Assembly (NCBI GenBank): GCA_003601535.1
Contig: PIXW01000007.1
Span: 1-15,388 of the forward strand
Reading direction: 5' to 3'
Source: ANME-2 cluster archaeon
Lineage (GTDB): Archaea; Halobacteriota; Methanosarcinia; Methanosarcinales; Methanogasteraceae
DNA length: 15,388 nt
A program made the position numbers and the translations under genes. Below, one piece after another: positions 2,368-14,640 of the stretch. How positions within the stretch are numbered: position 1 is the stretch's first letter; each line of letters opens with the position of its first letter. The notes beneath the pieces were generated by a model. It was not told the DNA's origin. It searched no databases and saw only the letters and a list, made by a program, of their open reading frames with translations.

Positions 2368-5136
2368 ATGGACAGGATCATCATCAAAGGAGCAAGGGAA
2401 CACAACCTGAAGGATATAAATCTTGAGCTCCCACGAGACAAGTTTATAGTGATAACAGGACTCTCAGGTAGCGGAAAATCGACCTTAGCGTTTGATACGC
2501 TCTACGCTGAGGGGCAGAGACGGTATGTCGAGTCGTTATCAGCGTACGCGAGGCAGTTTCTTGGGGTTATGAGCAAGCCGGATGTCGATTCGATCGAAGG
2601 AATCTCGCCTGCCATCGCAATTGAGCAGAAAGCGACGAGCAAGAATCCGAGAAGCACTGTCGGAACCGTTACAGAGATCTATGACTATCTGCGACTGTTG
2701 TTTGCAAGGATCGGCATCCCCCACTGTCCGGTACACCATATCGAGATCGCTGCACAATCACCCGAGAAGATTGCAGAACGAATCGCTGAGGATACGAAAG
2801 GATCGATCATCGTTCTATCTCCTGTAATCAGACAGAAGAAAGGTACGTACGAAAAACTGATATCCGACCTCAACAGGGAAGGATACACCAGAGTACGGGT
2901 CAACAAAGAGATTTACAGGACCGATGAAAAAATAGAACTTGATAGGTATAAAAAACATGACATAGAAATAGTCATCGACAGACTGCACGTTGATGACCGG
3001 TCGCGACTGGCTGAAGCAGTTGAGAACGCACTACAAAGGTCAGATGGTCTCGTAACCGTACTTGACGAAGACGGTCGCGAGTTCATGTATTCATCGAAGA
3101 TGGCTTGCCCGATCTGCGGTATCACGTTTGAAGAGTTGCAGCCGAGGATGTTCTCGTTTAACAGCCCATTTGGCGCATGTCCTGTCTGCCACGGGCTTGG
3201 CATAACCATGAACTTTGACCCGGACCTTATAATCCCTGATAAGAGCCGGTGCATCGCCGGCGGCGCGATTGCAATCTATAAAAACGCGATCGGTGGATGG
3301 CGAGGAGAGACAGTGGCTGCTGTTGCAAAGCACTTCGGATTCGACATCTTTACACCGATAGAAGACCTCTCTTCTGCGCAGTACAATATCCTGATGTACG
3401 GCACAGATGAGCTGATCCCATTTCAGAATTACAGGAGCGGGTGGGAAGGGCTTCTGCCCCAGTCAGAACGGCTGTACAGAGAGACAAAATCCGAACACCG
3501 GCGGCACGAACTGGAACGGTTCATGAGAATCTCCCCATGCCCGGAGTGTGAGGGAAAACGGCTGAAACAAAAGATTCTGGCAGTTACCGTCGGGGGAAGA
3601 TCGATAATCGATATCACAGACATGTCGATCGGCAGGTGCATCGAATTTATGCGAGAACTCGATCTCACAGAGAAACAGCTTGAGATCGCAGGACAGATTC
3701 TAAAAGAGATACGAGATCGACTTGATTTTCTTGCCAATGTCGGTCTCAGTTATCTCACGCTTTCGAGAGCTTCGAGTACGCTTTCGGGAGGCGAAGCGCA
3801 GAGGATACGGCTTGCAACCCAGATCGGATCCAACCTGATGGGGGTCCTGTACATTCTGGATGAGCCATCCATCGGTCTGCACCAGAGAGACAACCAGAAG
3901 TTAATTGGGACGCTGCACAGGCTGCGCGACATCGGTAACACGCTTATTGTTGTGGAACATGACGAAGAGATGATACGGAGAGCGGATTATGTCGTTGATA
4001 TGGGTCCTGGCGCAGGACGTAATGGTGGATTCGTGGTTGCGAAAGGAACTCCCGAAGAGATCGAACAGAATCCGGAGTCGCTCACTGGAAAGTATCTCTC
4101 AGGAGAGCTTGAAATAGGACTACCTGATAGGAGGAGAACTCCCAGAGGGTTTATCCAGCTCAAAGGGTGCAGGGAGAACAATCTAAAGAATATCGACGTT
4201 ACAATACCAACGGGCGTTCTCACACTCATTACAGGTGTCTCAGGAAGCGGGAAATCCACGCTCATCTACGATATACTGTACAGAGGGATGATGCGGAAGC
4301 TGCATGGTTCCAGACAGAGGGTAGGGTCGCACGACGAGATTCGCTCGGGAAGAGAGATCAACAAGGTGATCGTGATCGATCAGAGCCCCATCGGGAAGAC
4401 GCCGAGGAGCAATCCTGCAACCTACACAAAAGTCTTTGATGAGATACGGAAGATCTTTTCAGAGACAAAAGAGGCGAAGATTCGAGGATATAAACCTGGA
4501 AGATTCTCGTTTAATGTCAGCGGAGGCAGATGCGAAGCATGCGACGGGGACGGAGTCATCAAGATCGAGATGAACTTCCTGCCTGATATCTATGTGGAGT
4601 GCGAGGAGTGCAGAGGGAAGCGATACAACAAGGAGACGCTGGAAGTGAGATACAAGGGAAAAACGATAGCCGATGTTCTTGATATGAGTGCCGAAGAAGC
4701 ACTGCGGCTCTTCGAGAATATCCCATCGATCAGACAGAAGCTTGAGACTCTGATAAGGGTCGGACTTGGATATATCAAGCTCGGGCAGAGGTCCACCACT
4801 CTTTCAGGCGGAGAAGCACAGCGGATCAAGCTGACAAAGGAACTATCGAAGAGAGCGACTGGAAAGACGTTATACCTGCTGGACGAGCCCACAACAGGGC
4901 TCCATTTCCATGACATCAAGAAGCTGATAACGGTGTTGAACGATCTCGTGGATAAGGGCAATACAGTGGTTGTTATCGAGCACAATCCGGATGTGATTAA
5001 ATCTGCGGATCATATCATCGATCTCGGTCCCGAAGGAGGCGATGATGGTGGTATGGTGGTTGCAGAAGGGACGCCTGAGGAGATTGCAGCGAGCGCTGGG
5101 AGTTATACCGGAGAATTTTTGAGAGAGATTCTTTAG
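2368..5136 (+). CDS. uvrA: Excinuclease ABC subunit UvrA
   Basis: UvrA is the dimeric ABC-type ATPase that scans DNA for bulky lesions and loads UvrB in nucleotide excision repair. The 922-aa protein is full length (about 940 in bacteria). First half: Walker [10 protein letters not shown] (31-39), UvrB-binding region, zinc module C247/C250/C271/C274, ABC signature LSGGEAQRI (472-480), Walker B ILDEPS (496-501). Second half: Walker [10 protein letters not shown] (623-631), zinc module C722/C725/C745/C748, signature LSGGEAQRI (812-820), Walker B LLDEPT (837-842). All ATPase and zinc motifs are intact. The protein is bacterial in type, as in other archaea with Uvr genes, where horizontal origin is generally assumed. 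It is separated from uvrC by 1,006 bp holding gene remnants, so the three uvr genes cannot be read as one compact operon. Confidence 0.98.
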
Positions 5137-5279
5137 CCCAGCTCCCAGAATCCTGGCAGCACTATCAGTTCCTCAATGACCTGAGCGGTCTCTATACTCT
5201 TATTCTGATACCGCTTGATTGGCACTGGATATGATCTGGTGCTCCGGTGAAGAAGATGGATTCTCACGAGTTCTATCAT
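5133..5279 (-). pseudogene. Remnant of type I restriction enzyme R subunit (HsdR C-terminal region)
   Basis: An open stretch of 48 codons on the minus strand, ending with a TAA inside the last codons of uvrA, contains IKRYQNKSIETAQVIEELI (5219-5163). This closely matches the conserved helix near the C-terminus of HsdR proteins (typically ...A-(I/L)-(K/R)-(R/K)-Y-x-N-(R/K)-x-I-E-(A/T)-A-(Q/E)-V-I-E-E-L-I-x-L-A-K-E). The match is lost after ELIVL, where LAKE is expected but PGFWELG follows, and upstream of IKRY. A stop at 5291-5289 closes the frame. Nothing else of HsdR, HsdM or HsdS is present, so this is a scrap of a deleted restriction gene. The family call rests on recognition of about 20 residues; the sequence is too short for more. 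Confidence 0.6.
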
Positions 5280-5321
5280 TCTACCATTCTATTATTTTAT
5301 CAAAATCGCTGTCACCGGAGC
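5241..5321. repeat. Perfect 10-bp inverted repeat bracketing the junction of two gene remnants
   Basis: GCTCCGGTGA at 5241-5250 is exactly inverted as TCACCGGAGC at 5312-5321, with a 61-bp interior. The interior is pyrimidine/AT-rich on the plus strand and contains CATTCTA twice. It lies between the conserved core of the HsdR remnant and the stop of the DUF4143 remnant. It could be a chance repeat, a weak stem, or the ends of a tiny deleted element; no flanking target duplication is obvious. Confidence 0.35.
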
Positions 5322-5335
5322 GTATTCGTTTAATC

Positions 5336-6067
5336 CTACATTCTTTCCGCATCGGGCATGAGCCATTCGTAGACGGGTTTGATTCTGATAGTTTGGTCAT
5401 CTATTACGAGCACATCAGATTCTTTCTCAGATATTATGACACCTTCGTCAAGATTATGCACTTTCATTGCTTCTAACAAACCCCTTATCTCTCTTTTCCG
5501 TGTAGCGTCATCCTGTAAGGAAACCGTTACCTGAAGTGCTTCGGTTATCTTAAGACCGTCTCTTATCAAGAAGTCGCATTCATAGTTTCCCTTGTGATAA
5601 TATATCTCTTTGTTATCCCTCCTCAATGTTGTGCACACAAGGTTCTCAAGTAACCTCTCCCTGTTCTCTGAAAACCTGAATGATATTGAGTTTACCAGCC
5701 CGGTATCCAGACAGTACAGTTTCTTGGGGTTTGCGAGCTGTTTTTTCACAGATACGTCGTATTTGGTCAGTGTGTATAGCAGGTACGAACTTTCCGCATA
5801 CCTTATGTATTCTTTCACAGTTTCTGCTGCAATGCCGAGGGTTTTTCCAATGCTTGAGTACGAGAACGTCTGTCCTGTGTTTGAGATCACAAAATATAGC
5901 AGGTCAAATACATCTTTATTGTTCCTGATGTTGTTTGGATATATTATGTCCTTCAGGTAGATGGTCTGGAAGTAGTTTTTCAGTATCTCCTGTTTCAAAT
6001 CGCGGTCATCTTCCAGTACAACCCGTGGAAATGCCCCATATCTAAGACATGCAGTCCGTGGAAGCAC
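5336..6067 (-). pseudogene. AAA (AAA_14/DUF4143-type) ATPase, C-terminal half only
   Basis: The 243-codon frame (GTG at 6067; open back to a stop at 6103-6101) matches the C-terminal DUF4143 part of the large prokaryotic AAA_14-DUF4143 ATPase family. It opens at CLRYGAFPRVVLED (family: yl-x-yGGfPevvl), followed by EILKNYFQTIYLKDIIYPNN, a winged-helix-like section (TFSYSSIGKTLGIAAETVKE, then YIRYAESSYLL), and a nuclease-like section (RLLENLV, NYECDFLIRDG, EALQVTVSL) ending at a natural-looking C-terminus. The N-terminal AAA domain with Walker A (GPRRxGKT) and Walker B is entirely missing, and only 75 bp separate the start from uvrC. No SD precedes the start. Intact proteins are about 400-450 aa. 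The gene looks AT-richer than its neighbours, consistent with mobile origin. It is most likely a decapitated, non-functional remnant; stable expression of the isolated domain is a weaker alternative. Confidence 0.8.
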
Positions 6068-6070
6068 AAC

Positions 6071-6082
6071 CTTAAAAATATG
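6071..6082 (+). promoter_or_regulatory. Candidate TATA-like box for uvrC-uvrB
   Basis: CTTAAAAATATG is the most AT-rich, TATA-like element upstream of uvrC, centred about 66 bp before its ATG, which would give a leader of about 40 nt. uvrCB needs its own promoter because remnants in the opposite orientation separate it from uvrA. No SD is visible before the uvrC ATG, so the assignment is tentative. Confidence 0.35.
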
Positions 6083-6142
6083 ACAGCGAAACTCCTTGAG
6101 TCATACATTGGATAAGTTCTCTGCACAGATACCAACATAGCC

Positions 6143-7693
6143 ATGATCGATCGTTCCAACATACCTGAGAATCCGGGATGCTACCTCTTCAAAGACGTCT
6201 CCGGGAGGATCATCTATGTCGGAAAAGCAAAGAATCTGAGAAAGAGGGTCAGAAGCTACTTCCAGAAGAACGATCTCGACCCGAAGACGGAAGCGCTGGT
6301 CCGAAACATCGATTCCGTCGATTTCATTGTGACCGACAATGAAGTTGAAGCACTGATCCTTGAGAACAATCTCATAAAGAAGAACAGCCCGAAGTACAAT
6401 ATCGACCTCAAGGATTCGAAGCGGTATGCCTACATCGAATTAACAGAAGAGAAGTTTCCTCGCTTGCTCGTTGCAAGAAGAAAGGATGATACCGGCAAAT
6501 TCTTCGGACCGTTCGTCTCAGCCGCAGCGCGTGATCATATCCTCTCTGTCTTAAGGAAGACATTTCAGATCAGAACATGCAAGAGGATGCCAGAGAAGCC
6601 GTGCTTGAGATATCATATCGATCTATGCTCTGCGCCGTGCGCCGGAAATATCGAGAGCGCCGAGTATTCTGAGCGGATGCAGGCAGTCGAGTCGATTCTC
6701 AAGGGCGGGACAACCGAACTCATCAAATCCAAAAAGCGCGAGATGAAGGAAGCATCAGACAGACTCGACTTCGAGCGTGCGTTAAAACTGCGCAATCAGA
6801 TCGAAGCGATCGAATGGCTCATGGAAAAGCAGAAGATGGAGCTCTCAAAGAGATACGATGAGGATATCATAAATTACATCGTGAGAAACGAGAGAGTTTA
6901 TCTTATCCTTTTCAACGTCTATAAAGGGACTCTTGAGAACAAGCAGGAGTTTGAATTCGAGTACAGGGATAATTTCCTTGAGGAGTTTTTGATCCGGTAT
7001 TATTCTGAGAATACCGTGCCTGCCGAGATCCTGCTCCCGCAGGAGATCGATTCTTCGCTGATCTCGTTTCTCAGGATGAAGAGGGGTGGCAGGGTATCGG
7101 TTAAGGTGCCAAAGATCGGAGACAAGAAGCAGTTACTGGATCTCGTCATAAAGAATGTGGAAGCGTCATTCTTCTCTGATATCGAGAAACTGGAGGCGCT
7201 CAAAAGTGCGCTTCACCTTCCAGATATCCCGGTTGTAATCGAGTGCTTTGATATATCGCACCTCTCAGGCACATCCACTGTCGGGTCCATGGTGCAGTTC
7301 AGGGATGCAAAGCCTGACAAAAGCAATTACAGGCGGTTCAGGATCAAAACAGTCGATGGAATTGACGATACAAAAGCGATTGCCGAGGTTGTAAGAAGGC
7401 GGTACACAAGGCTTCTCAAGGAGAGTTCAGAGATGCCTGATCTGATCATAATCGATGGCGGTACCGGGCAGTTGAATTCGGGGGTAAGAGAGCTCAAAAA
7501 ACTCGGTCTCGAAATTCCCATCATATCCATTGCAAAGAAGTTCGAAGAGATACATACACCGGGATTGGCGTTTCCGCTACGACTTCCCAGGAGAGGCAAA
7601 GCCCTGAAACTGATACAGGAGATAAGGGATGAAGCACACAGGTTTGCGATCAGTTATAACAGACTGTTGCGCAAAAAGGAACTGTTGAGATGA
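6143..7693 (+). CDS. uvrC: Excinuclease ABC subunit UvrC, lacking the C-terminal HhH domain
   Basis: UvrC makes the two incisions flanking a lesion marked by UvrB. The 516-aa product has an N-terminal GIY-YIG nuclease (GCYLFKD 12-18, IIYVGKAKNLRKRV 23-36, metal-ligand Glu in EVEALILENN 67-76). A four-Cys cluster follows (C146, C154, C162, C166) matching the 4Fe-4S ligands reported for bacterial UvrC. The UVR motif that binds UvrB is at about 196-226 (LDFERALKLRNQIEAIE). The RNase H-like nuclease has D370 (ECFDISH), D438 (IIIDGGTGQLN) and H499 (RDEAHRFA). The protein stops 17 residues after that His; the tandem helix-hairpin-helix domain of typical UvrC (about 600 aa) is absent. The stop overlaps the uvrB start in ATGA, leaving no room for the missing domain in any frame. 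The ATG gives the standard MIDxSxxPxxPGCYLF N-terminus. Confidence 0.96.
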   Translation: MIDRSNIPENPGCYLFKDVSGRIIYVGKAKNLRKRVRSYFQKNDLDPKTEALVRNIDSVDFIVTDNEVEALILENNLIKKNSPKYNIDLKDSKRYAYIELTEEKFPRLLVARRKDDTGKFFGPFVSAAARDHILSVLRKTFQIRTCKRMPEKPCLRYHIDLCSAPCAGNIESAEYSERMQAVESILKGGTTELIKSKKREMKEASDRLDFERALKLRNQIEAIEWLMEKQKMELSKRYDEDIINYIVRNERVYLILFNVYKGTLENKQEFEFEYRDNFLEEFLIRYYSENTVPAEILLPQEIDSSLISFLRMKRGGRVSVKVPKIGDKKQLLDLVIKNVEASFFSDIEKLEALKSALHLPDIPVVIECFDISHLSGTSTVGSMVQFRDAKPDKSNYRRFRIKTVDGIDDTKAIAEVVRRRYTRLLKESSEMPDLIIIDGGTGQLNSGVRELKKLGLEIPIISIAKKFEEIHTPGLAFPLRLPRRGKALKLIQEIRDEAHRFAISYNRLLRKKELLR

Positions 7694-9621
7694 AATTCAA
7701 ACTGGTATCGGATTTCAAGCCAAAAGGTTCGCAGCCAGAAGCAATAGAAAAGCTGGTTGCAGGCATACGAAAGAATCACAACTATCAGACGCTCCTCGGT
7801 GTGACTGGCTCAGGAAAGACGTTTACAATAGCTAATGTCATAAGCAAGGTTCAGAAGCCAACGCTCGTTCTCGTACACAACAAGACGCTTGCAGCCCAGC
7901 TGTACAGTGAGTTCAAGGAATTCTTCCCTGAGAACCGGGTTGAGTATTTCGTGTCATATTACGACTTCTATCAGCCAGAGTCCTACATTCCGCAGAAGGA
8001 TCAGTACATAGAGAAGGACGCGCAGATAAATCCCAGGATCGAGCAGATGAGGCTCGCTGCAACCGCATCACTGTCCTCAAGAAAGGACGTGATCGTCGTC
8101 TCGTCGGTCTCGTGCATATACGGCATCGGAGCTCCTGAGACGTTTCGGAAGATGGGTTTTGAGATAACGGTCGGGCAGGAGATCCCAAGAAACAAATTTC
8201 TAAGAAGGCTTATAGAGATACAGTTCGAGAGAAACGATATCGAACTGATGCCAGGGAGATTCAGGGTCAAAGGGGATACGATCGATTTTATCCCAGGGTA
8301 TTTCAACAATATCATACGTGTGGAGATGTTCGGTGATCGTATCGAGACGATCGCTGAGATCGACAAGAATACAGGAAATGTGATTGAGAAATTTAAATAT
8401 TTCTTTATCTATCCTGCAAGACACTTTGTGATCCCCGAGGACAGAATCAGGGAAGCGATAGCATCGATAAAAGAGGAACTTGAGAGGAATCTCCCAACAC
8501 TCGGGATGATTGAAGCTCACAGGTTGAAGCAGAGGACGCTCTACGATATCGAGATGATCGAGGAGACTGGCTTTTGCAAGGGGATCGAGAACTATTCGCT
8601 CCACTTCGATGGGAGAAAGAAGGGAGAGAAGCCTTATTCTCTTCTTGATTACTTTGGAAACGATTTTCTGATCATAATCGATGAGAGCCACCAGACGATC
8701 CCGCAGCTCCACGGGATGTACAACGGGGATTACGCCAGAAAGAAGAGTCTGGTGGATTATGGTTTCAGGCTGCAAACAGCACTTGACAACCGCCCCCTCA
8801 GGTTTGACGAGTTTGAAGAGTATATGAAGCGAAATACGGTGATCTTCATGTCGGCAACACCAGGGAAGTATGAACGGCAGGTGTCCGGGCAGGTGGTTGA
8901 GCAGATCATAAGACCCACAGGTCTTGTTGATCCAGAGGTCTTTGTGCGACCTGTTACCGGTCAGATCGATGATCTGAAGAGCGAAATTGATGCTACAGTA
9001 AAACGCGGTGAGCGCATCCTTGTTACAACGATTACAAAGAGGCTTGCCGAGGAATTAACAGAATATCTTGCAGAATGCGGGATAAAGACAAGATACCTCC
9101 ATTCCGATATCGATACGCTTGAACGAACCGAGATAATAAGAGAGCTCCGGTTGGGGAAGTTTGACGTTCTCGTCGGGATAAATCTCCTGAGAGAAGGGCT
9201 CGATATACCTGAGGTCGGGTTCATCGGAATCCTTGATGCTGACAAGGAGGGCTTCCTGCGGGACACGAAAAGCCTGATACAGACGATAGGGCGGGCTGCG
9301 CGGAATGTGAACTCAACGGTGGTGCTGTATGCGGATACCATGACCGATTCGATACGGCATGCCGTAGCCGAGACGAAGCGGCGGAGGATGCTTCAGATCG
9401 AGTACAACAGGGAGCATGGAATCGTTCCTGCGACTATTGTGAAGGCGATAAAGGAGAAGGAGATCGAGATAAAGGATGTGAAACACATACCAAAGAAGGA
9501 TATCCCGAATCTCCTGATCGAGATCGAGGCAGAGATGAGGGAAGCAGCAGACAAACTCGATTTTGAGAGGGCTATCGCGCTCCGGGATAAGATTGCTGCG
9601 CTCAAGAAGAGGGTTGGGTGA
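7690..9621 (+). CDS. uvrB: Excinuclease ABC subunit UvrB (helicase-like damage verification)
   Basis: UvrB receives damaged DNA from UvrA, verifies the lesion by ATP-driven strand separation and recruits UvrC. The 643-aa protein is complete: Walker A GVTGSGKT (37-44), the damage-probing beta-hairpin region YFVSYYDFYQPESYIPQKD (86-104), DESH box (331-334), motif III MSATPGKYE (387-395), helicase motifs V and VI (GINLLREGLDIPE 496-508; QTIGRAARN 531-539), and a C-terminal UVR coiled coil (EMREAADKLDFERAIALRDK, about 615-634) that pairs with the UVR of UvrC. The start overlaps the uvrC stop by 4 bp (ATGA), and a weak SD (AAGGA, 7676-7680) lies 9 nt upstream, so uvrC-uvrB are surely co-translated. 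The 3' end converges on cbiB with a 29-bp gap and no clear terminator. Confidence 0.98.
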   Translation: MKFKLVSDFKPKGSQPEAIEKLVAGIRKNHNYQTLLGVTGSGKTFTIANVISKVQKPTLVLVHNKTLAAQLYSEFKEFFPENRVEYFVSYYDFYQPESYIPQKDQYIEKDAQINPRIEQMRLAATASLSSRKDVIVVSSVSCIYGIGAPETFRKMGFEITVGQEIPRNKFLRRLIEIQFERNDIELMPGRFRVKGDTIDFIPGYFNNIIRVEMFGDRIETIAEIDKNTGNVIEKFKYFFIYPARHFVIPEDRIREAIASIKEELERNLPTLGMIEAHRLKQRTLYDIEMIEETGFCKGIENYSLHFDGRKKGEKPYSLLDYFGNDFLIIIDESHQTIPQLHGMYNGDYARKKSLVDYGFRLQTALDNRPLRFDEFEEYMKRNTVIFMSATPGKYERQVSGQVVEQIIRPTGLVDPEVFVRPVTGQIDDLKSEIDATVKRGERILVTTITKRLAEELTEYLAECGIKTRYLHSDIDTLERTEIIRELRLGKFDVLVGINLLREGLDIPEVGFIGILDADKEGFLRDTKSLIQTIGRAARNVNSTVVLYADTMTDSIRHAVAETKRRRMLQIEYNREHGIVPATIVKAIKEKEIEIKDVKHIPKKDIPNLLIEIEAEMREAADKLDFERAIALRDKIAALKKRVG

Positions 9622-10601: not shown

Positions 10602-10628
10602 GTGTTTGTGAACGAAGAGCACGTACCA

Positions 10629-11903
10629 ATGAACTTCGTGCATGCGAGTGATTTCCATCTCGGGTATGTCCAGTACGGTCTTGCGGAGCGGTTCAAGGAT
10701 TTTGCACGCGCTTTCGACCGGGTTGCTCGCTATACGATCGAATCAGATGCGGAATTTCTACTCATAGCCGGAGATCTCTTCCATAAAAGGAATATCAATG
10801 CACCAACATATCTGCAGGCGTATAAGATCCTGAGGAAGTTAAAAGAACACAATATTCCGGTGTATGCGATCGAGGGAAACCATGATCTTGCGTATCGCCG
10901 GGATGTGAACGGATGGATGCAGATCCTTGATGCGCAGGGGTTACTGCGATTGATCCGGATCAAACCGGTGGAGCAACACGGGATCAAACTGATGGGGGAT
11001 TTCATTGATATCGATGGTGCACGCATCTTCGGTGTCAAATACATTGGATCGCAGACCCGGAGTGCGATACCTGATATCGCAGGAGAGATCGAAACGATCA
11101 ATGACATATTCGGTAAACCGGATTATACGATTCTTATGATGCACTTTGGGATGGAGGGGATACTCAGTACGACCGGCATCGGGGAGTTATCCTACAATTC
11201 CCTGATTCCGTTACGTGATGTGGTCGATTATCTTGCGCTCGGACATTATCATATAAGATACGAGTACGGTGGATGGATATTCAATGGAGGAAGCTGCGAG
11301 ATGGTCTCGATGGCTGAACATAATAAGCCAAAGGGGTTCTACCATGTCGTGGATGGTGAAGCATCGTTCCAGAGGGCAAAACCACGCCATGTTGAGCGGT
11401 TCGGCATCGATACCAGTGGAATACGATCCATTCCTGATCTGTACAACAATATCCAATCGGTCGTCGATGGAGTTCCCCGCGGGGATGCAAAACCGCTCGT
11501 AGAGATTACACTACATGGCGATCTAAAATTCCCTAAAACAGAGATATCCATCGAAAAAATAAGAAAAAAAGTTTCTGATCGGCTCGATCCACTATGGGTC
11601 AATGTGCGGATCATCGATACGAAGGAGCCGATCAGCGTTGATAACCATGACATCTCCAGAGCAGAGATCGAACGATCGGTTATCGAAGAGATGGTCAAGG
11701 GCACACCTTATCGAAATCATTTGAACGATGTCACGGATATGGTCATCGAGGCGAAACAACTCGCTGTTACCGGGACTGATCCGCGGATCATTCTTGAGCG
11801 CATGAAAAACTCGTATGGTGTGGTTAAACCTAAAAATAAGGAACAGATCGATCTGCCATTTGGTAGAGGCGGAACTGGGGCGGGTGAGACAGATGTGGAT
11901 TAA
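10629..11903 (+). CDS. mre11: DNA double-strand break repair nuclease Mre11
   Basis: Mre11 is the Mn-dependent nuclease of the Mre11-Rad50 complex that tethers and resects DNA ends. The ATG at 10629 gives 424 aa beginning MNFVHASDFHLG; a GTG at 10602 would add nine residues of no family resemblance. Phosphoesterase motifs are all present: D8/H10 (SDFHLG), D49 (AGDLFHKR), N84/H85 (EGNHD), H172 (MHFGMEG), H206/H208 (LGHYH). After the roughly 250-aa nuclease core come a capping region and a Rad50-binding helical section (about 330-400), then a Gly-rich tail (GRGGTGAG). The last 11 bp overlap rad50. The adjoining HerA helicase and NurA nuclease genes common in archaeal mre11 operons are not present here. 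Confidence 0.95.
   Translation: MNFVHASDFHLGYVQYGLAERFKDFARAFDRVARYTIESDAEFLLIAGDLFHKRNINAPTYLQAYKILRKLKEHNIPVYAIEGNHDLAYRRDVNGWMQILDAQGLLRLIRIKPVEQHGIKLMGDFIDIDGARIFGVKYIGSQTRSAIPDIAGEIETINDIFGKPDYTILMMHFGMEGILSTTGIGELSYNSLIPLRDVVDYLALGHYHIRYEYGGWIFNGGSCEMVSMAEHNKPKGFYHVVDGEASFQRAKPRHVERFGIDTSGIRSIPDLYNNIQSVVDGVPRGDAKPLVEITLHGDLKFPKTEISIEKIRKKVSDRLDPLWVNVRIIDTKEPISVDNHDISRAEIERSVIEEMVKGTPYRNHLNDVTDMVIEAKQLAVTGTDPRIILERMKNSYGVVKPKNKEQIDLPFGRGGTGAGETDVD
11883..11887 (+). promoter_or_regulatory. Shine-Dalgarno site of rad50 inside mre11
   Basis: GGTGA, 5 nt before the ATG at 11893, lies within the last codons of mre11. It fixes the rad50 start at 11893 rather than the upstream in-frame GTG at 11815 and suggests coupled translation of the pair. 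Confidence 0.6.
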
Positions 11904-14640
11904 TTCAGTCGAACTCCGGAATATCAAATCATACCGGAACGAGACCATCCGGTTCAAACCAGGGGTCAATGGCATCAGCGGGGAGAATGGTGCTGGCAAG
12001 ACAACAATCCTTGAGAGCATCGGATTTGCGCTCTTTGACGAGCTCCCATACAGCAAAAAGGAGTTCCTGCGGAAGGGAGAGAAGACCGGAGAAGTCAGAG
12101 TTCATGTCGTTGCGTCTGATGATCTGGAATATGTGATTACACGGTCGGTTAAGGGTGAGTATAGTGTCGAATCATCGATCGGGCGGATTGCAGTCGGAAA
12201 GGTCGATGTACAGGACTGGATCGTGGAGAATCTTTTCGGTGGTGTCCTGGGTCCAGGTGACCTCTCGCCCATATTCGAGAATGCTGTCGGGGTTCCGCAG
12301 GGAACGTTCACGTCATCGTTCCTTTCAACTCCAGCGGTGAGAAAAAAGGTTTTTGACAATATTCTCCGGGTGGAGGAGTACAGGAGAGCATTCGAGAACC
12401 TTGGCGACGTCTCAAAGATCATCAAAACCGAGATTGAGAGTCTGAAAAATGAGTATCATGAACTGAAGGGCGGCACCGCCAAATATGACGAGCTTAAAGA
12501 GGACTACGAGGGTGAACGAATCAGAGTTTCGGAGATAAAGGAAGATATAACCAAACTGGAGAAACAGTTAAAGCAATTGCAACTGAAGAGGGACGATCTG
12601 GGTAAAAGGAAGGAATTGATCGATTCTACAGAGAAAGAAGTGGAGAAGATGGGAAGAGATGTTGAAGAGCTGAAAAAACACCTTACCATCGCAAAAAAAC
12701 AGCTGGAAGATTCTCTGATCGCAAAAAAAGTACTCGAGGATACGATAGATGCAAAGGAAAAGTATCTGGATGCACAGAAACGATTGAAGGAATTGGGTGA
12801 AGAGAGGAAGAAACGGGACCGTATCGAGAAGCAGATGCGTGAGCAGGAGACTAAGCTAAAGCAGATGGAAACAGAACTGGAAAGAAAGAATGCTCTGCTG
12901 AACGAACTGGAAAATAATAAAAAGTCACTGAAAGAGATCGAACCACTGGTGAAAAAGCAGCAGCAGCTTGAAAAACAGATAAAGGATGCGGAAGACAGAA
13001 TAAGAGAGATTATTTTGATAGAATCGGATATCAGCGATCTGAAAAAGTCGATAGAAGAATTCAAAACGCTTTCAGAGAATTTGAGAGAGATTGAGGGGAA
13101 GCAGAAGGAGATCGAACCAGATGTGAAGAAACAGGAGGAACTCGAAAGCAAGAAACATACTATAACTGGAAAGCGATCTGCTATCGCTTCCGAGATAAAG
13201 AAGATACGGATGAAGAAGGGGGAGACTGGGGATACAAACCTGTGCCCGATTCTTGACGGGGTTAAATGCGCTGCGGTCAGCAGTTTTTCTGATTATTTTG
13301 AAAATAGGCTCAATGAAAGAGATAACGAACTAAGATCCACAAAAGATGAACTTAAACGGATTGAGAAAGAATTAAAAGACCTGAACAATCCAAAAAAGAG
13401 GATGGAGGTCTACAAATCCAGAATATCAGAGATAACAGGACAGTTAAAAAAGAGATCTGATGTGCAGGATGGATTGAAGCAACGTCAGAGCGATCTGAAA
13501 AAATCCCATGAGGCGTTCAGAGAGCGATATTCTCAGTATCTGCCCTCCATTCAGGATGCACCTGAATTGCGCGAGAAGATGGAGAAGGTAATAGGGATCA
13601 TGGAGACTGAATTGAAGGAACTGAACGATCCTATGCAGCAGGCATCGAAGATGGATGCGCTGATCGATGCCAGAACAAAAGAACTGGAGAGGATAAAAGT
13701 CGACGATAACGCCATAAAACTGGAGAAATCTAAATTATTCGAGATAAGGTTGGGATTATCTGAATTTTCAGACCTCGATTCCAGGGAGAAGGATGCGAGG
13801 AAGATCATGCAGGACTGCGAACCATATTACAGAAGATATCTGCAAAATGAGAAGAATGCGGATAATGCGGATGCGCATCAGCGTAAATGCGACGAATTGA
13901 GCAGCGAAATTTCGAAGAAGATATCAGAGAGGGAGCATCTCGTTAAGGATCTGACCGAATATAGATCGATGTTCGATTATGAAGTATTTGAACGAGTGAA
14001 CAGGGAGTACGAACAGAGAAATATCGAACTTGGAAGCAAGAGGACCGAGTATACGCTGATATCAAAGAACCTCGAAAGATTAAAAAACGATCTTAAAGAT
14101 ATGGAGTCTCTGATCAGGAAAAAAGAAGAACTGAAAAGAGAGTGTGAATCGAAGAGAGGTTTCTGGAGTTACGTCGAGTTCATAAGAACAACACTCAAGG
14201 ATTCTGCTCAGTTGGTCGCAGGAAAATTAATTAAAAACATAGGGGAGGAGGCTAACCGGATATACTGCGAGATCATCAACGATTACACGCAGGAACTCAG
14301 ATGGACGCACGACTATGCCATCGTCATAACAGAGCATGGTGAGGAGAAGGAGTTCAATCAACTCAGTGGTGGGGAACAGATGTGTTCTTCGCTTGCGGCG
14401 CGTTTCGCATTATTAAAGGTACTCTCCGGGTGTGATGTTGTATTTCTTGACGAACCGACCCAGAATATGGATGAGATACGAAGAGAGAAACTTTCGGAAC
14501 AGATACTGAACATATCAGGATTCAAACAGATTTTTGTTATATCTCATGACGATACATTCAATGAGAAGTACGAGAACGTGATCACGGTGCAGAAGATCAA
14601 TGGGGAGAGCAGAGTTACGAGCGATGGTGTGGTATCATGA
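11893..14640 (+). CDS. rad50: DNA double-strand break repair ATPase Rad50 with non-canonical Cys-X7-Cys hook
   Basis: Rad50 is the SMC-like ATPase partner of Mre11. The 915-aa protein starts MWINSVELRNIKSYRNETI and has Walker A GENGAGKTT (30-38), a Q-loop region (GVPQGTFTSSFL), a long charged coiled coil (about 165-445), an apex, a return coil (about 470-770), the signature LSGGEQ (824-829), and Walker B/D-loop FLDEPTQNMD (851-860). The apex is CPILDGVKC (C451, C459), at the exact midpoint of the chain. Canonical Rad50 has CXXC there, two copies of which bind one Zn between molecules; I find no CXXC anywhere in this protein. ATPase motifs are intact, so it is presumably functional. The Q-loop and hook recall, from memory, an SbcC/SMC-like ATPase group also found in bacteria, so this may be a divergent branch of the family. 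Confidence 0.93.
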   Translation: MWINSVELRNIKSYRNETIRFKPGVNGISGENGAGKTTILESIGFALFDELPYSKKEFLRKGEKTGEVRVHVVASDDLEYVITRSVKGEYSVESSIGRIAVGKVDVQDWIVENLFGGVLGPGDLSPIFENAVGVPQGTFTSSFLSTPAVRKKVFDNILRVEEYRRAFENLGDVSKIIKTEIESLKNEYHELKGGTAKYDELKEDYEGERIRVSEIKEDITKLEKQLKQLQLKRDDLGKRKELIDSTEKEVEKMGRDVEELKKHLTIAKKQLEDSLIAKKVLEDTIDAKEKYLDAQKRLKELGEERKKRDRIEKQMREQETKLKQMETELERKNALLNELENNKKSLKEIEPLVKKQQQLEKQIKDAEDRIREIILIESDISDLKKSIEEFKTLSENLREIEGKQKEIEPDVKKQEELESKKHTITGKRSAIASEIKKIRMKKGETGDTNLCPILDGVKCAAVSSFSDYFENRLNERDNELRSTKDELKRIEKELKDLNNPKKRMEVYKSRISEITGQLKKRSDVQDGLKQRQSDLKKSHEAFRERYSQYLPSIQDAPELREKMEKVIGIMETELKELNDPMQQASKMDALIDARTKELERIKVDDNAIKLEKSKLFEIRLGLSEFSDLDSREKDARKIMQDCEPYYRRYLQNEKNADNADAHQRKCDELSSEISKKISEREHLVKDLTEYRSMFDYEVFERVNREYEQRNIELGSKRTEYTLISKNLERLKNDLKDMESLIRKKEELKRECESKRGFWSYVEFIRTTLKDSAQLVAGKLIKNIGEEANRIYCEIINDYTQELRWTHDYAIVITEHGEEKEFNQLSGGEQMCSSLAARFALLKVLSGCDVVFLDEPTQNMDEIRREKLSEQILNISGFKQIFVISHDDTFNEKYENVITVQKINGESRVTSDGVVS

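Follow-up and report, generated by a model that had tools for sequence, protein, structure and literature searches.

The window analysed here, by which we mean the whole 15,388-nucleotide stretch of DNA, carries mre11 and rad50 on its forward strand, with rad50 lying directly behind mre11 and the end of the latter overlapping its start by 11 nt (Table 1). We chose the ATG at 10629 as the start of mre11; its listed open reading frame begins at a GTG at 10602. The predicted Rad50 possesses the split ABC ATPase head of the family, composed of Walker A, LSGGE and Walker B, and this head aligns with the solved archaeal Rad50 heads 3aux, 5f3w and 3qku; the adjoining Mre11 gene is that expected of a Mre11–Rad50 system. 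The best match to the protein is the NCBIfam Rad50 model NF003034 (6.6e-65, 219.6 bits), at a score below the curated cut-off of 700, which was passed by none of 60 genomes, the CXXC-bearing f4 group included, and by none of 14 controls. The closest named relatives are 'Methanosarcinales archaeon', 'Candidatus Methanogaster' (ANME-2 cluster in the NCBI taxonomy) and ANME-2 or ANME-2c metagenome-assembled genomes (MAGs). The host genome is itself a MAG (78% complete, 263 contigs), in which the window Rad50 is the only match; a search for a second, canonical Rad50 (NF003034 at 1e-20) found none, a result that 78% completeness keeps from being final. A match to the Pfam zinc-hook model PF04423 at G000:C65 (20.6 bits, below the cut-off) belongs to a 167-aa ORF unrelated to Rad50, which we take to resemble the transcription factor TFE. 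Upstream of mre11–rad50, on the same strand, lie genes that we named by eye as UvrA, UvrC and UvrB (2368–9621), and the whole makes up a repair gene cluster; an opposite-strand ORF amid the uvr genes (5336–6067) resembles a truncated ATPase.

Table 1. Features of the mre11–rad50 locus, in window coordinates.
Feature	Position	Strand	Details
mre11	10629..11903	+	motifs D-x-H-x-G, GDLF, GNHD, HFG, GHYH
rad50, 915-aa ORF	11893..14640	+	Walker A 11980-12003; LSGGE ABC signature 14362-14376; Walker B FLDEPT 14443-14460
44-nt direct repeat, two copies	12930..13147	+	spaced by 174 nt (58 codons); identity 77%
N-arm prolines P351 and P409	12943..13119	+	P351 12943-12945; P409 13117-13119; 58 residues apart
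Wide hook, C451-P-I-L-D-G-V-K-C459 (C-X7-C)	13243..13269	+	coiled-coil apex; TGCCCGATTCTTGACGGGGTTAAATGC = CPILDGVKC
Aromatic cluster F465, Y468, F469	13285..13299	+	just past hook; F465 and F469 in all 119 X7 relatives, Y468 in 118
C-arm prolines P500 and P580	13390..13632	+	P500 13390-13392; P580 13630-13632; 80 residues apart; P500 in 64/64 rows

At the tip of its coiled coil, the window Rad50 bears two cysteines at residues 451 and 459 of 915, and CXXC occurs nowhere in the 915-aa protein, as the initial annotation had read. The apical position is marked by prolines on both arms: those of the N arm precede the first Cys by 42 and 100 residues, and those of the C arm follow the second by 41 and 121. 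Compared with a canonical zinc hook, the protein has the conserved apical Cys pair and lacks the CXXC motif; PF04423 (Rad50_zn_hook) gave no match on it. Searching the apex against solved structures yielded no match of weight, the hits being keratin (4zry, E 4.5) and Rad50 (6zff, E 8.1). The aromatic cluster just past the hook is a possible packing or dimer contact.

Comparison with close relatives, namely the query (P0001) and the best 120 of 523 homologue matches, revealed that 119 of these 121 proteins carry C-X7-C. One more (P0073) carries C-X6-C, the 518-aa P0033, which is named 'partial', is without the hook region, and CXXC is found in none of the 121. A sequencing error or a one-genome oddity, which the initial annotation had named as the grounds on which its claim would fall, is therefore ruled out. 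One relative, P0002, is 98% identical to the query and may come from the same or a sister MAG; thus the independent evidence is that of the relatives 35–70% identical. In the 119 X7 proteins, both Cys and the Pro are present throughout, accompanied by Gly at –5 (117) and Gly at +5 (114), and the F-x-x-Y-F below the hook is kept in 118 of them (F+14 and F+18 in all, Y+17 in 118) and also in P0073. Beyond these relatives, Y-F alone is kept in Fusobacterium, in one f15 protein and in the f22 X6 hooks. Between residues 180 and 740, a 64-row alignment has only nine invariant columns, C451, P452, C459, F465, Y468, F469, L494, L497 and P500, six of which sit at the hook. The six other cysteines vary, being kept in 41 (C666), 52 (C792), 43 (C847), 15 (C642), 18 (C751) and 2 (C831) of the 64 rows. 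Both hook cysteines are under strong constraint. The earlier suggestion that the protein belongs to a subfamily bearing a hook of its own is supported, the subfamily being one of Rad50.

We then surveyed 392 Halobacteriota genomes with a profile built from wide-hook rows, which at E 1e-30 matched 71 genomes. Altogether 69 loci were read, coming from 62 matched genomes (G147 twice) and six genomes from the query-protein search; the own genome was already known, and the matched genomes left unread are G078, G089, G101, G108, G193, G225, G322 and G348. The apex is C-X6-C in 36 loci, CXXC in 23 and C-X7-C in 10, in a sample that leans to relatives of the query and does not give phylum frequencies. 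Each of the 69 loci has a Cys pair and none has a lone apical Cys. C-X7-C is found in f3, f5, f14 and one f15 member; C-X6-C in f9 (28/32), f7, f22, f30, f34 and one f15 member; and CXXC in f4 (5/5), f18, f23, f24, f36, f10, f28 and the remaining 4/32 of f9. Since named haloarchaeal plasmid proteins group with f18, f23, f24 and f36, we take these groups to be haloarchaea, and f4 appears to be Methanosarcinaceae. The wide hook is thus widespread, and beyond the relatives of the query it is usually C-X6-C, which the initial annotation had not foreseen. The spacing did not serve as a marker of anaerobes: with f4 presumed to be strict anaerobes, the idea was rejected on the CXXC of f4 and the C-X6-C of Pyrinomonadaceae (Acidobacteriota).

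Wide hooks also occur outside the phylum. The SbcC of Fusobacterium vincentii, on a plasmid record, carries C-X6-C and is preceded directly by an SbcD-like ORF with GNHD. All of the best 120 of its 992 matches carry C-X6-C as well; being 92–100% identical, with every named one from Fusobacterium, they count as one lineage. A search with an f7 protein gave, as the best 120 of 185 matches, the proteins P0243–P0316 and P0317–P0362. Among the matches listed, C-X6-C is present in 73 of the 74 former, and the latter comprise 38 with C-X6-C, seven with CXXC and one without a pair. Three named members of P0317–P0362 are Pyrinomonadaceae, and at least P0353, which groups with f30 on the second tree described below, and P0317, which is f7-like, look archaeal. 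In the same family, P0335 has no Cys pair at the apex; near its middle there is a single Cys, residue 456 of 920. CPxC hooks are seen in Arcobacter (L112) and Cetobacterium (L114). From 31 viral loci we obtained 17 ORFs with Walker A (the other 14 loci gave none), of which 12 have CXXC, four have no pair and one (L126, 437 aa) has C-X7-C without Pro, so that a CP-type wide hook is seen in 0 of the 17; the phage records gave no match to P0001. These observations indicate that Rad50 hooks show more variety than they are usually credited with. Among the matches listed, full-text literature searches, together with passages of PMC6969161, PMC9569753, PMC9389158 and PMC2610378, provided no description of a C-X6/7-C hook, which is not proof of absence.

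To relate the spacing classes, trees were built from the head domains only, with the apex excluded and a midpoint root. On the first tree (84 rows, 326 columns), a single set (100/98) unites the X6, X7 and haloarchaeal CXXC proteins and leaves f4, f10 and three f9 CXXC rows outside; the hook label changes 5 times against 37.8 in shuffles. On the second tree (59 chosen rows), 3 changes separate CXXC from wide hooks, and for the CXXC label starred branches make 2 of these necessary; X6 and X7 differ by further changes (P0073, f15). Wide and CXXC forms thus interleave within one head-domain family. The deep order is unsure, given the long branches of Fusobacterium, f10 and f22, and the trees give no direction of change.

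The initial annotation had also proposed that the loop was expanded by insertion, which finds support for the step between the two wide spacings and none for the step from CXXC. When the hook profiles of X6 (f9) and X7 are aligned (hhalign probability 91.5%), X7 has one residue more within the loop, and the coil after the hook is shifted by +1 (r 0.62; +8, in the same phase, gives 0.66). Accordingly, X6 to X7 does look like a one-residue insertion. The two CXXC classes align with each other (hhalign 97.7%), but no alignment of local profiles was obtained between CXXC and wide hooks in any of three pairings (hhalign probability 4.5, 5.0 and 16%). A four-residue insertion into a CXXC loop was rejected, the expected +4 coil shift giving only r –0.09 and 0.32; going from haloarchaeal CXXC to f9 X6, the best shifts are –2 (r 0.69) or +5 (0.59), and within P0317–P0362 the CXXC rows pass into the X6 rows best at +1 (0.53). 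The register test is a weak one, owing to the seven-residue periodicity of the coil, and X6 sets of equal spacing (f9 versus P0317–P0362) differ by +3 (r 0.67).

The arms that carry the hook vary in length in a regular manner. A Pro 41 residues past the second Cys is present in 119 of 120 relatives with an apex. Of the 119 whose N arm is full, 104 have a Pro 42 residues before the first Cys, and of the 102 whose N arm is long, 91 have one at –100; the C arm carries a second Pro, at +114 to +121, in 51 of 102. Longer proteins have extra N-arm prolines at –158 and –216, to which the ANME-2c type adds C-arm prolines at +201 and +281; in the ANME-2d type the C-arm step is about 75 and less regular. 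Judged from this spacing, the arms look to be built of one to four proline-marked modules, of 58 aa on the N arm, where they are most regular, and of 75–80 aa on the C arm. Protein lengths near 770, 911–915, 1041–1053 and 1174–1203 fit one to four modules, the window protein fitting two. Its 44-nt repeat pair is likely the trace of an N-arm module duplication, and relatives contain fresh tandem copies of 174 nt (92%) and 240 nt (96–98%); on both arms, tandem duplication of DNA seems to be the way in which coil length evolves. Tandem Repeats Finder reported no array within the window or in the ANME-2d-type L102. Unequal arms were seen in P0013, P0015, P0019, P0021, P0022, P0023, P0029 and P0032, and in L041 at 5481–5979; unequal module numbers with 96–98% identical repeats may reflect either assembly collapse or real unmatched arms. 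Such modular arms, of one to four units, offer one and the same machine in several natural lengths.

In 49 of 59 loci, the rad50 gene is immediately preceded by a Mre11-type ORF, and the remaining 10 loci hold at most 1168 nt upstream; counted by distinct heads, as the 59 loci include repeats, the figure is 43 of 50. Those f1, f3 and f5 genomes that match NF003034 at 1e-20 do so only at the wide-hook family locus; some others of these groups, mostly incomplete (G008, G009, G011, G014 and G047), have no match at this threshold. Because of the upstream mre11 and the restriction of NF003034 matches to the wide-hook locus, the wide hook probably serves an ordinary Mre11–Rad50 complex. In an f5 genome, an 839-aa frame (G041:C169:3915-4670) weakly matches query residues 661–904 (1.2e-6). 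All 13 genomes of f2, a group of the same order (G017, G020, G036 and others), several of them 96–100% complete, are without an NF003034 match at 1e-20, and in two of them the query protein finds weak matches (2e-4 to 6e-4).

These data enable us to propose a putative model of the hook. Each arm tip would offer two cysteines, C451-P at the start of the loop and C459 eight positions on. When two tips meet, a single metal ion, most likely Zn2+, would be bound by the four cysteines in the manner of the CXXC hook. The loop might be closed by an x-D/N-G turn in X7 hooks or a tighter turn in X6 hooks, with the second Cys moved towards the descending helix. Wide hooks begin with CP, like CPxC hooks. 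The assumption of zinc at the wide hook is one by analogy; zinc held through a wider loop, as the initial annotation had considered, is plausible. A description of the Rad50 hook as a stable dimerisation module for which an SMC hinge can be substituted (PMC6969161) is in keeping with the joining of two tips. The spacing changes and a single Cys is almost never kept, as expected of two ligands of one shared site, and a shared metal site would be the best explanation of cysteines kept together at changing spacing, with P0335 as the exception. We therefore consider it rather probable that the window encodes the Rad50 of a Mre11–Rad50 complex from an ANME-2c-type archaeon, with a widened hook whose tips are joined via a shared metal, likely Zn2+. 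The lone Cys of P0335, the silence of PF04423, the want of a weighty match among solved structures and the unaligned CXXC and wide profiles are among the counterpoints to a metal hook.

The aromatics, in X7 relatives as invariant as the cysteines, could themselves provide metal-free contacts carrying the dimer, in which F465, Y468, F469 and the CPIL loop would form the interface and the cysteines would be structural. The Y-F pair, kept in P0073, one f15 protein, the f22 X6 hooks and Fusobacterium, is consistent with such contacts, and so is the replacement of the Rad50 hook in yeast by an SMC-type hinge, that of MukB (PMC6969161). However, Y-F or F-F is absent and both Cys are kept in 31/31 f9-group X6, 70/70 f7-type X6 and 31/38 P0317–P0362 X6 hooks, and a Cys pair is present in all Halobacteriota loci read, which renders a metal-free hook unlikely. 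The four cysteines of two tips might instead hold a [4Fe-4S] or [2Fe-2S] cluster, for which two cysteines per chain suffice; an Fe–S cluster bridges two subunits in the nitrogenase Fe protein. The C-X6/7-C apex would then be a second, independent chemical solution to joining Rad50 arms, and the tethering of DNA ends would respond to redox state. In favour of such a cluster, the haloarchaea in the same family, aerobic by our assumption, have CXXC, and the methanogen-like and methane-oxidising relatives of the query are presumably rich in Fe–S proteins. Nevertheless, spacing does not track oxygen use, as seen from the f4 and Pyrinomonadaceae hooks, and we know of no motif specific for Fe–S; both the cluster and the redox-responsive solution it would exemplify seem improbable to us.

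In favour of a tip that is no self-dimer hook and binds another partner protein or DNA, the local profile of wide hooks is unlike that of CXXC hooks; on the other hand, the mre11 gene order and the lack of another Rad50 match at 1e-20 in the own genome point to the usual complex, and we hold a separate partner to be very improbable. Least probable of all is an intrachain or interchain C451–C459 disulfide: a cross-strand bond between cysteines that flank a short turn is conceivable, but spacings of 6 and 7 interchange with CXXC, here a metal-type motif, and the host is presumably a strict anaerobe with a cytoplasmic Rad50. The wide Cys pair extends through several archaeal groups and some bacteria, and the Pfam hook model misses the window protein. 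Wide hooks thus offer natural variants, on small testable fragments, for asking what a hook requires in metal affinity, rigidity and angle.

Canonical CXXC zinc hooks are exemplified by P. furiosus, human and E. coli. The window Rad50 resembles the canonical Rad50/SbcC zinc hook (PF04423) in its antiparallel coiled-coil apex, a Cys pair starting C-P, the Rad50 head and the Mre11 partner gene, and differs in a spacing of 7 (or 6) instead of 2, in going undetected by PF04423, and in a local profile for which no alignment was obtained with the CXXC hooks compared. The haloarchaeal 'SMC family ATPase' proteins (L146, L147, L148 and chromosomal relatives) share the head-domain family and an upstream metallophosphoesterase gene, but have a CPTC hook. 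On the plasmids of L146 and L147, metallophosphoesterase, CXXC Rad50-like ATPase and NurA genes form a run; L148, at a record end, is without NurA. Archaeal SMC-related proteins (ASRP, or coalescin; ClsN, Sph) are described as a separate family with a zinc hook (PMC9389158). They and the window Rad50 both belong to the SMC superfamily, are archaeal and have an apical hook; the window protein scores 102.4 bits against the ASRP model NF045487, below its cut-off of 300. Finally, the Fusobacterium SbcC and the Pyrinomonadaceae SMC family ATPase differ from the window protein in a spacing of 6, the lack of F-x-x-Y-F after the hook and their distant heads, yet share with it a wide apical Cys pair starting with CP.
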